Source: Frigoribacterium faeni (lineage in GTDB: Bacteria > Actinomycetota > Actinomycetes > Actinomycetales > Microbacteriaceae). Taken from it: 39,789 bases of DNA. Below are positions 29,924 through 36,856 of the stretch, piece by piece. The translations under genes were made by a program, and so were the position numbers. The notes beneath the pieces were generated by a model. It was given only the letters and a program-made list of their open reading frames with translations. It had not been told where the DNA came from and did no database searches. Each line of letters starts with the position of its first letter. Position 1 is the stretch's first letter. The stretch spans positions 1 to 39,789 of the forward strand of contig NZ_BJUV01000028.1 in assembly GCF_007988805.1 (NCBI RefSeq). Direction: 5' to 3'.

Positions 29924-30361
29924 ATGACCTCGACGCCTGACTCCTTCGACGCCGGTTCCTTCGACGCGTCGACCACCGCCACGGCCCCGGTCGCTGCGAG
30001 CACCCCGTCGCTCGAGTGGGAGCAGGTGATCGTCGATGCGCTCGAACCCGCCACGCTCGCGCACTGGTGGGCCGAGGCGCTCGGCTGGGTCGTCGTCTCC
30101 CCCGTCGGCGACGACGAGCCCGAGATCCGCAGCAGCCCCGACTCCCTGCCGGGGTTGCTCTTCGTGCGCGTACCCGAGGCCAAGACCCTCAAGAACCGCC
30201 TGCACCTCGACTTCCGCCCCGACGATCAGGACGCCGAGGTCGAGCGCCTGCTCGCATTGGGAGCGACGCGCTCCGACGTCGGACAGACCTCCGACGTCTC
30301 CTGGGTCGTGCTCGCCGATCCCGAGGGCAACGAGTTCTGCGTGCTCGGCTCGCGCCGCTGA
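29924..30361 (+). CDS. VOC (glyoxalase-like) family protein
   Basis: The 145-aa protein has an N-terminal Thr/Ala-rich extension of about 28 residues. A single vicinal-oxygen-chelate-like unit follows: 'DALEPATLAHWWAEALGW' (first beta-alpha), 'KNRLHLDFRPDDQDAEVERL' (with the typical His) and 'VVLADPEGNEFCVL' (with the metal-ligand-type Glu). It may bind a metal or small ligand; the reaction is unknown. It follows the DUF3073 gene closely, and its end faces purM across a long repeat-filled gap. The stop is followed directly by GAGCCACG-type tandem repeats. Confidence 0.85.
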   Translation: MTSTPDSFDAGSFDASTTATAPVAASTPSLEWEQVIVDALEPATLAHWWAEALGWVVVSPVGDDEPEIRSSPDSLPGLLFVRVPEAKTLKNRLHLDFRPDDQDAEVERLLALGATRSDVGQTSDVSWVVLADPEGNEFCVLGSRR

Positions 30362-30397
30362 ACCCTGCCCGGGCGTCGGTCGGAGCACCGCACCGCC

Positions 30398-30493
30398 GAG
30401 CCACGCGCCGCGTCGCGCCGCCCCGCCGAGCCACGCGCCGCGTTTCGCCGCGTCGCTGAGCCACGTGCCGCGTCGCTGAGCCACGCCCCACGT
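30398..30493. repeat. Tandem GAGCCACGCGCCGCGT repeats after the VOC gene
   Basis: Four copies of a GAGCCACGCGCCGCGT-type unit start at 30398, 30428, 30458 and 30478 (periods 30, 30 and 20). The first two are identical over the 16 bases and the later two diverge. No gene is supported here; minus-strand frames through the stretch are low-complexity repeat translations. Confidence 0.7.
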
Positions 30494-30743
30494 CACGAAG
30501 CCGCGCCACGCCTCCTGGAGCCGCACTCCCCGGCGATCCCGCGCGCAACAGGTCGGCCCGGCGAACGACGCCGCTCCGACTCCACCTATTACGCATGGAT
30601 GCGAAAGAAGCACTGGCCACGCAGACTCGCCCGGCGACACCACGCACCGCAGGTCCGCCCGCTGACAGCGCGCACCGCAGGTCCGCCCGCTGACAGCGCG
30701 CACCGCAGGTCCGCCCGGCGAACGACTCCGCTCCCACTCCACC

Positions 30744-30765
30744 TATTACGCATCGATGCGTAATA
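30744..30765. repeat. Perfect 22-bp palindrome (array copy 2)
   Basis: The sequence reads the same on both strands, with half-site TATTACGCATC and a central ATCGAT. It is AT-rich within very GC-rich surroundings. Copy 1 at 30584-30610 is degenerate on its right side, while the left half-site is intact. Confidence 0.9.
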
Positions 30766-30870
30766 ACGGACTGGCCACGCAGACTCGCCCGGCGACATTG
30801 CGCACCGCAGGTCCGCCCGCTGACAGCACGCACCGCAGGTCCGCCCGGCGAACGACTCCGCTCCCACTCG

Positions 30871-30898
30871 ACCTATTACGCATCGATGCGTAATAGGT
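30871..30898. repeat. Perfect 28-bp palindrome (array copy 3)
   Basis: Half-site ACCTATTACGCATC is followed by its exact complement, giving 14 bp per arm with no spacer. It extends the 22-bp palindrome of copy 2 by three base pairs on each side. It could form a cruciform or bind a dimeric protein. Confidence 0.9.
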
Positions 30899-31013
30899 GC
30901 TGGGCGCGCAAAGAGTTCCGCCGGTCGGTCCTGCGCACACCGGTCACGGCACGCGAGCCGCTCACCCGCCGCCGCACTCCCCGGCCTAGGGCCCCAGCAC
31001 CTCCGCACGGACG

Positions 31014-31078
31014 TCACACCACGATCCGCCCGTGAAACCACGTTTATCCGTGGTGTGATCGCGAAAGTGTGGTTTCAC
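31014..31078. terminator. Nested inverted repeats between the VOC and purM genes
   Basis: GTGAAACCAC (31032-31041) pairs with GTGGTTTCAC (31069-31078), and TCACACC (31014-31020) pairs with GGTGTGA (31052-31058). The two stems overlap, so they are alternative folds. Placed just beyond the end of minus-strand purM (stop at 31107), they may act as its terminator, but no T-run is present. Confidence 0.45.
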
Positions 31079-31106
31079 CGCACCCGGCACCCGGCCCCCC
31101 GCCCGC

Positions 31107-32231
31107 TCAGCCGGCGAACGCCCCGACCAGCCGCACCGCGCCTCCATCGACGCCCTTGGCGCCCTGCTCGAACCCGGTCAGGTCGCGCGTCGCCGTCGCG
31201 ACCGTGCCGACCTGCCAGGTCTCGATGCCGTCGGCGACCAGCGCGGCCGAGACCGCGGCCGCCTGCGACGCCGCGACGACCGCGATCATGCCGATGCCGA
31301 GGTTCCAGGTGCCCTCGCTCGACTCGAGCGTCGAACCGGCCAGGTCGCTCAGCACCCGGAAGACGGGCGCCGGCGACCACGTCGCACGGTCGACCTCGGT
31401 CCACGAGCCCTGCGGCAGCACCCGGGCGAGGTTCGCCGCGATGCCGCCGCCGGTCACGTGGCTGAGCGAGTGCACGGCCCCGGCGAGCGCCGGGTCGTCG
31501 AGCACCCGCAGCAGAGGAGAGGTGTACAGCCGCGTCGGCTCGAGCAGGGCCTCGCCGAGGGTGCCCGACAGGTCGGCGACCGAGTCGGTGTAGCCGAGGT
31601 CGCGCGACGCGAGGATGTGGCGCACCAGCGAGAAGCCGTTCGAGTGCAGGCCCGACGAGGCGAGCGCGAGCACGACGTCTCCGTCGGCGACCAGGTGCGG
31701 ACCGAGCTGGCGGTCGGCCTCGACCGCGCCGACCGCGGCACCGGCCACGTCGTAGTCGTCGGGGCCCAGGAGGCCCGGGTGCTCGGCGGTCTCGCCGCCG
31801 ACCAGGGCGGTGCCGGTCTCGCTGCAGGCGCGGGCGATGCCCTCCACGATGGCGGCGATGCGGGTGGGGACGACCCGGCCGCAGGCGATGTAGTCGGTCA
31901 TGATCATCGGGCGGGCGCCGACCACGACGATGTCGTCGACGACCATGCCGACGAGGTCCTGACCGATGGTGTCGTGCTTGTCGAGGGCCTGCGCGATGGC
32001 GACCTTCGTGCCGACGCCGTCGGTCGAGGTGGCGAGCAGGGGCCGGTCGAACGACTTCAGGAACGACACGTCGAACATGCCGGCGAATCCGCCGACGCCG
32101 CCCACCACGCCCGGGCCGTGAGTGGCACTGACCGCGGCTTTCATCAACTCCACGGCGCGGTCGCCGGCGGCCGTGTCGACACCCGCCGCGGCGTAGGAGG
32201 CGCTGGTCGAGGGGGCAGAGGAGGTCGCCAT
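31107..32231 (-). CDS. purM: Phosphoribosylformylglycinamidine cyclo-ligase
   Basis: PurM (AIR synthetase) closes the imidazole ring in purine synthesis, converting FGAM and ATP to AIR in the cytoplasm. The 374-aa protein matches the family length and shows 'YAAAGVDTAAGDRAVELMK', 'LLATSTDGVGTKVAIAQ', 'DDIVVVGARPMIMTDYIACG', 'ALVGGETAEHPGLL' and 'LASSGLHSNGFSLVR'. The ATG at 32231 has only a weak ribosome site. It is transcribed away from purF across a 71-bp gap, whereas these genes run in the same direction in Mycobacterium. A copy of the dispersed CCGCGCCTCC motif lies in its last codons. Confidence 0.97.
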   Translation of the reverse strand: MATSSAPSTSASYAAAGVDTAAGDRAVELMKAAVSATHGPGVVGGVGGFAGMFDVSFLKSFDRPLLATSTDGVGTKVAIAQALDKHDTIGQDLVGMVVDDIVVVGARPMIMTDYIACGRVVPTRIAAIVEGIARACSETGTALVGGETAEHPGLLGPDDYDVAGAAVGAVEADRQLGPHLVADGDVVLALASSGLHSNGFSLVRHILASRDLGYTDSVADLSGTLGEALLEPTRLYTSPLLRVLDDPALAGAVHSLSHVTGGGIAANLARVLPQGSWTEVDRATWSPAPVFRVLSDLAGSTLESSEGTWNLGIGMIAVVAASQAAAVSAALVADGIETWQVGTVATATRDLTGFEQGAKGVDGGAVRLVGAFAG

Positions 32232-36328: not shown

Positions 36329-36856
36329 TCAGGGCTCGATGTCGCCTTCGACCGGAGGCTCCTCGGGGGCGTCGACGCGGTTGCGCTCGGCCGTGACCCT
36401 CTTGGCCCGGCGCAGCGAGACGCGGTCGGCCACGATCGCCACGAGCGAGCCGATGGCACCGCCGAAGGTCAGACCCCACAGCGAGAAGTAGCCATAGGTC
36501 GACGCGACGCCCTCCCCTTCCGCGAACGGGAACAGCGACGTCACGATCAGCGACACGACGACCCCGGCGAGCGCACCCATGATCAGGAACACCGGGTACT
36601 TCGGGGCCCGGCGCACGGTCACCTCGTCGTGCGTGGCGATCTCGACCGGCTCGGCCGGCTGCGTCTGCTCGACCGGCTCGGTCTGACCGACGGGCTCGGT
36701 CTGGTCGACGGGCTCCGTCTGCTCGACCGGCTGCGTCGGCTCTGCCGCTGCGGCGGTGGTCGCGCCCGTGGCGTGGTCCGCGCGCGGGGCGTCGCCCTCG
36801 TCACCGCCGTCGCGGGGGGCGGCGGGCTGCTGCGGTTCGTCGGGTGCGGTGGTCAC
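36329..36856 (-). CDS. Membrane protein with QTEPV-type repeats, function unknown
   Basis: No named family is recognised. The 175-aa protein begins with a charged Ala/Pro-rich region. Near residues 40-65 it has about four tandem copies of a six-residue repeat of the type P-V-E/D/G-Q-T-E. It then has two membrane helices ('YPVFLIMGALAGVVVSLIVT' and 'LWGLTFGGAIGSLVAIVADR') and an acidic/basic C-terminal tail. The GTG at 36856 begins 'MTTAPDEPQQP'. The open frame runs further upstream but through repeat-containing intergenic DNA. It converges with the ABC exporter and lies before the SCP-like gene. Its role is unknown. Confidence 0.72.
   Translation of the reverse strand: MTTAPDEPQQPAAPRDGGDEGDAPRADHATGATTAAAAEPTQPVEQTEPVDQTEPVGQTEPVEQTQPAEPVEIATHDEVTVRRAPKYPVFLIMGALAGVVVSLIVTSLFPFAEGEGVASTYGYFSLWGLTFGGAIGSLVAIVADRVSLRRAKRVTAERNRVDAPEEPPVEGDIEP

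Follow-up and report, generated by a model that had tools for sequence, protein, structure and literature searches.

The analyzed window, a stretch of 39,789 nucleotides from Frigoribacterium faeni, contains a 745-bp intergenic region that extends from a gene for a glyoxalase-like (VOC) protein to purM. A tandem array, located at about 30549-30898, was found in this region (Table 1).

Table 1. Genes, palindromes, and repeats of the array region (positions in the window)
Feature	Positions	Strand	Description
Glyoxalase-like (VOC) gene	29924..30361	+	PF18029; left of the array, convergent with purM
Long tandem units	30549..30895	+	Periods 158 and 130; palindrome starts 157 and 130 bp apart
Palindrome copy 1	30584..30611	.	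Right arm degenerate; model span 30571-30624
Three 28-bp tandem repeats	30628..30711	+	Between palindromes 1 and 2
Palindrome copy 2	30744..30765	.	Perfect, 22 bp; model span 30728-30781
Two 28-bp tandem repeats	30786..30841	+	Between palindromes 2 and 3
Palindrome copy 3	30871..30898	.	Perfect, 28 bp; model span 30858-30911
purM	31107..32231	-	AIR synthase domains PF00586 and PF02769; right of the array; gene name from the original prediction

The original prediction described a degenerate palindrome followed by perfect ones of 22 and 28 bp, and the coordinates of all three hold. Every other perfect palindrome in the window is shorter than copies 2 and 3. Such lengths are rare in first-order Markov resampling of the window (100 trials), where perfect palindromes of at least 22 bp occurred 0.04 times and those of at least 28 bp 0.00 times on average. 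The predicted numbers of 28-bp repeats, three and then two, were confirmed, and the palindrome is AT-richer than its GC-rich surroundings, as claimed: the GC content is 43% for copy 3 versus 72% for the intergenic region and 68% for the window. In contrast, the claim that the palindrome stays symmetric while the surrounding DNA diverges fails inside the array. Over 118 bp, the stretch that ends in palindrome 2 shares 92% identity with the one that ends in palindrome 3, matches between the long units are at 91% and 94%, and the left arms with their left flanks are nearly constant across the three units, whereas the right arm of unit 1 has lost its symmetry. The match between right and left arms lengthens from unit 1 to unit 3. 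Preservation of the palindrome against unrelated flanks was seen only when loci across the genome were compared. A CRISPR array was rejected, since the spacers are themselves repeats.

Further repeats were found in the window. A tandem repeat with periods of 30 and 20 bp (30388-30494) is located in the same intergenic region and has no apparent relation to the palindrome array. An inverted-repeat element, GTGAAACCAC...GTGGTTTCAC (31018-31084), adjoins the array. Three diverged copies of this element (75-79%) were found elsewhere in the same genome (one in C59 and two in C32), and it was unmatched in 15 other Frigoribacterium genomes. An 18-bp tandem repeat with 5.2 copies is located at 36649-36742.

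Distribution of the palindrome in Frigoribacterium

The palindrome core is TTACGCAT-NN-ATGCGTAA. A genome search with the half-site TATTACGCATC, proposed in the original prediction, yielded 36 matches at up to 1 mismatch, compared with 0 for the reversed control. The 41 sites used to build a covariance model comprised 34 from the window's own genome (G000), 5 from G002, and 2 from G003, the last two being related Frigoribacterium species that carry the palindrome. Counted by position, 34 sites in 11 clusters were found with this model in the own genome, 10 sites in G002, and 8 in G003. All 34 own sites match the model by construction, with zero further own sites above the threshold, and 11 of the 18 sites in the relatives (5 in G002 and 6 in G003) lie outside the model-building set. 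The palindrome therefore is not confined to the array and recurs with its symmetry in two close relatives, the opposite of the outcome that would have refuted the original prediction. Among 16 genomes of the genus, strand hits at E up to 0.1 numbered 60 in G000, 19 in G002, 12 in G003, and 1 in G012. The G012 match is weak (E 0.03), was taken as chance, and is the only one in the remaining 13 genomes.

Pattern searches were extended to larger samples. The 18-base core at up to 2 mismatches was found at 20 own sites, 4 sites in G002, 2 in G003, and 1 in G062 among 99 genomes; the G062 match (2 mismatches) was taken as chance. A longer pattern at up to 1 mismatch was present in 2 of 349 genomes of the family, the own genome and G002, in a sample with 8 genomes of the genus that did not include G003. 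In a genome collection that may omit the own genome, a pattern of 18 fixed and 2 half-fixed bases was found in three stretches, belonging to Frigoribacterium sp. Leaf263, an Arcobacter, and a gammaproteobacterial MAG, the last two being taken as chance. The 16-base core was found in 6 viral-contig stretches, a pattern so short that it gives chance matches in so large a collection. The segment 30540-30940 was unmatched among plasmids and phages at E up to 0.01, and 30300-31110 was unmatched in Rfam up to E 1. Titles among the literature matches listed named no such palindrome family, which does not prove that none has been described.

The purM array was the only place with the 28-bp repeat in searches covering 60 genomes and the DNA after the VOC gene in 15 other Frigoribacterium. 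When the whole intergenic region was compared with the 60 genomes, matches were found in 15, mostly short (71-91%) and to other parts of the region; the window itself aside, the 28-bp repeats were not covered by any match listed.

The 11 own clusters are located at the start of C3, in C3 at 117 kb, in C15, C23, C28, at the end of C31, in C33, C36, C38 (two clusters), and C54. Every cluster has distinct spacer DNA, and in multi-copy clusters the spacer is often duplicated along with the palindrome. Distances between palindromes include values of 157, 152, 154, and 149 bp within a range of 41 to 216. Contig breaks were observed at the start of C3 (start of L059) and the end of C31 (end of L068), beside very similar palindrome copies. 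Judging from this similarity, these two clusters may be one longer array split by assembly.

Occupancy of sites differs between species. After the VOC gene, neither the palindrome (up to 5 mismatches) nor the 28-mer (up to 6) was found in any of 15 other Frigoribacterium; the interval to purM was delimited in 14 of them, and in G011 purM lies outside the 1.5 kb scanned. The VOC-purM interval is 126 bp in G002 and 151 bp in G003, both of which carry the palindrome family elsewhere. Since this site is empty in the other genomes, the purM array most likely originated in the lineage of the window. Orthologous copies were found for C33 in G002 and G003 and for C36 in G003, each matched by one flank only, and C15 was tentatively matched in G002 and G003 by one flank in each.

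The only gene seen to carry the palindrome among the loci read, in worn copies, is fliK, which was found in 15 of the 16 genomes (all except G008). Two model-hit sites in each of G003 and G002 lie inside a frame ending in the FliK C-terminal domain (PF02120, for which the G003 protein was tested). At up to 6 mismatches, fliK contains 4 palindrome copies in G003, 2 in G002, and 2 in G000. All 8 are in one phase and form in-frame stretches in the FliK linker, the G003 copies being read as AITHAGV-like (AITHAGVTA-like) peptides (linker loci L148, L159, L160, and L161). The two G000 copies have 5-6 mismatches and match the core no better than the two look-alikes found at up to 6 mismatches among the other 12 fliK genes (G007 and G004). 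One of the G000 copies shares an identical 18-base stretch with both G002 copies and was therefore kept as a worn copy.

Relation to known palindromic repeats

Among the possibilities listed in the original prediction for the array, a REP-type element is best supported, although two defining REP features are absent, and a site for a dimeric protein retains some probability (see below). The palindromes resemble REPs and BIMEs in being short, hairpin-capable, and intergenic, dispersed over the genome, and arranged in composite arrays that partly alternate with a second palindrome family; the dispersal characteristic of REP/RAYT systems is likewise present, as multiple intergenic copies. A GTAG end and a link to RAYT transposases characterize classical REPs (PMC3733652). 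A Y1 (IS200/IS605-type) transposase (PF01797) was found in none of the 16 genus genomes, the same search being positive in 5 of 14 control genomes. A consistent GTAG end is also absent: GTAG or CTAC was found anywhere in the flanks of only 3 of the 41 sites and does not occur in the consensus. Because these two features are missing, the palindrome family is not a classical member of the REP/RAYT group. Its copy number is also lower than that of typical REPs, which as a rule number more than 100 per genome (PMC2817692).

In the main text of PMC3733652, GTAG and CGTC repeats are assigned to phyla other than Actinobacteria, a word absent from that text, and CGTC-tagged REPs are reported without a dedicated transposase. 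Here, CGTC or GACG was found in the flanks of 19 of the 41 sites, compared with 10.4 for shuffled flanks, at variable positions and with array copies that are not independent. The in-frame copies have their closest parallel in the Rickettsia palindromic elements (RPEs), for which in-frame copies in protein genes are described (PMC10969869). RPEs are about 150 bp long and occur in many unrelated genes, whereas here the unit is about 30-50 bp, with a conserved span of about 30-54 bp, and fliK is the one gene affected among the loci read, with 8 copies in three fliK genes and a weak pair in G000. Similarity to MITEs lies in the short, non-autonomous-looking, inverted-repeat structure. In contrast to MITEs, a partner insertion sequence and a target duplication were not demonstrated here, Y1 being the sole transposase family searched and the empty purM sites being unalignable, because the intergenic DNA gives no usable alignment between species.

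Taken together, the purM palindromes are best read, with a probability of roughly 0.6, as one cluster of a short interspersed palindromic (REP-like) repeat that has spread in one Frigoribacterium clade and was amplified locally. Copies differ in occupancy between species, occur in all gene orientations, and are multiplied locally with locus-specific neighboring DNA. Dispersal of the palindrome over clusters and species is demonstrated, and no mobilizer was identified in the search for Y1 transposases. In the proposed scheme, copies would arrive as hairpin-forming units, through a non-Y1 activity or through hairpin-templated copying. Replication slippage or unequal exchange, favored by the hairpins, would then build arrays such as the 157/130-bp units and the 28-bp repeats. 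The purM array probably has no role specific to purM.

Conserved core and a possible dimeric-protein site

The unit shared by the sites is a conserved palindromic core of 28-29 bp, A(G/C)CTATTACGCAT-NN-ATGCGTAATAG(C/G)T. Among 16 representatives chosen by us, columns 14 to 42 of 54 are conserved beyond the 1% null, except columns 15 and 27. Outside this range, only two left-hand columns (6 and 8) and five right-hand ones (47, 49, 50, 53, and 54) stand out. Conservation of the flanks is thus weaker and one-sided, so the unit seems to have an orientation.

Covariation in the stem was rejected as evidence for a structure. Over 25 column pairs, pairing was found in 57.2% of cells, below the mean of 60.1% for shuffled columns; it exceeds the 29-38% for slid partners, as any conserved palindrome would. 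A by-locus test was made on 18 hand-chosen loci, excluding the mixed-arm C23, the second C38 cluster, one G002 site, and the fliK copies. In this test, the column pair 15/40 covaries (13 G-C, 4 C-G, and 0 mixed; Fisher p 0.0004), which may reflect two subfamilies, and the pair 18/37 does not (p 0.25). Symmetry is kept mainly as sequence and not by covariation, which is compatible with a site for a dimeric protein.

Such a site is the main rival to the REP-like reading, though an unlikely one. The palindrome would be bound by a clade-specific dimeric DNA-binding protein of repressor, nucleoid, or recombinase type, and selection would keep the symmetric core. The inner TTACGCAT/ATGCGTAA are indeed kept as sequence in the 41 sites and in the 16 chosen representatives, and pairing below that of the column shuffles fits sequence recognition rather than hairpin shape. 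The core is also retained at orthologous sites, where 18-21 of 22 arm positions agree (seven comparisons), versus 69-81% for four-fold sites of four genes. This slight excess would suggest selection on the site, but the sites were found by their kept core. However, copies of the palindrome are located in fliK and between convergent genes, the neighboring genes share no common theme, one arm is broken in many copies, and the other 13 of the 16 genus genomes provided the one weak match only.

Gene context, hairpin folding, and meaning of the repeat family

Gene orientation was assigned with a home-made gene caller, the end of C31 and the start of C3 being counted as one cluster by their inferred join. 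Convergent genes flank three clusters (C3 at 117 kb, C28, and C33), tandem genes three (C15, C36, and one in C38), and divergent genes three (the other in C38, C54, and the joined C31/C3 start); the orientation at C23 was not resolved by the gene caller. No common functional theme was found among the gene families flanking the clusters. The mixed orientations and themeless neighbors argue against a terminator and against one regulon.

A second palindrome family, family B, was found to share some arrays with the first (C33, C38, and L134 of G002). It is a near-perfect 62-bp palindrome, GATCGAGTGGTCGGAAGATGCTCTTC...GAAGAGCATCTTCCGACCACTCGATC. BLAST yielded 92 strand matches in G000, and 9 of the 16 genus genomes were matched, a few of the matches being to the approximately 20 bases of the first palindrome included in the query. 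Reading of 22 stretches selected for such matches gave 48 copies; places in G000 include C10, C14, C15, C6, C32, C33, C43, C60, and others (L174-L193, L065, and L063). None of 36 copies in 12 stretches lies inside a called gene, and of 31 copies with resolved orientation, 19 are between convergent, 9 between tandem, and 3 between divergent genes. Unlike the first palindrome, family B looks terminator-like and is possibly a repeated bidirectional terminator or a MITE. Neighboring copies are often 149-166 bp apart (158, 166, 165, 160, 158, 149, and 149 in L174, L175, L178, and L065), and spacings of 128, 235, 239, 254, and larger occur too.

For the first palindrome, a role as an RNA hairpin at transcript ends, serving as a terminator or mRNA stabilizer, is improbable. 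Five of six folded copies are more stable than nearly all shuffles, including copy 3 (-28.4 kcal/mol, z -5.7) and copy 2 (-16.8, z -4.1), and the genes flanking the purM site are convergent. However, the RNA of copy 1 folds no better than its shuffles (z +0.87), general covariation is absent, and the Rfam search was negative. An intrinsic terminator was rejected, since divergent clusters are as frequent as convergent ones (3 each of the 9 resolved) with no 3' bias, in contrast to the gene orientations at family B. A purely local tandem repeat that belongs to no family, its symmetry perfected by template switching, is highly improbable. The arm match growing from unit 1 to unit 3 is what template-switch correction is expected to give, and such switching may be why copies 2 and 3 are perfectly symmetric, but as a whole explanation this reading is already refuted by dispersal, the same core being present in two other species and at unlinked sites whose flanks are unrelated.

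The usual explanation for REP-like repeats invokes RAYT transposases. The palindromes could represent, as a doubtful further step, a mobile palindrome of Actinobacteria with a mobilizer other than Y1/RAYT, inserting both intergenically and in frame in the FliK linker, the core being the mobilizer's putative recognition site. The arrays may be usable as variable-number markers. The palindrome family provides a small, tractable case in which to ask how such repeats could spread in the absence of RAYTs, because it is patchy in sibling species, occurs in a genus in which no Y1 was found, is mixed with family B, and has entered a coding gene.
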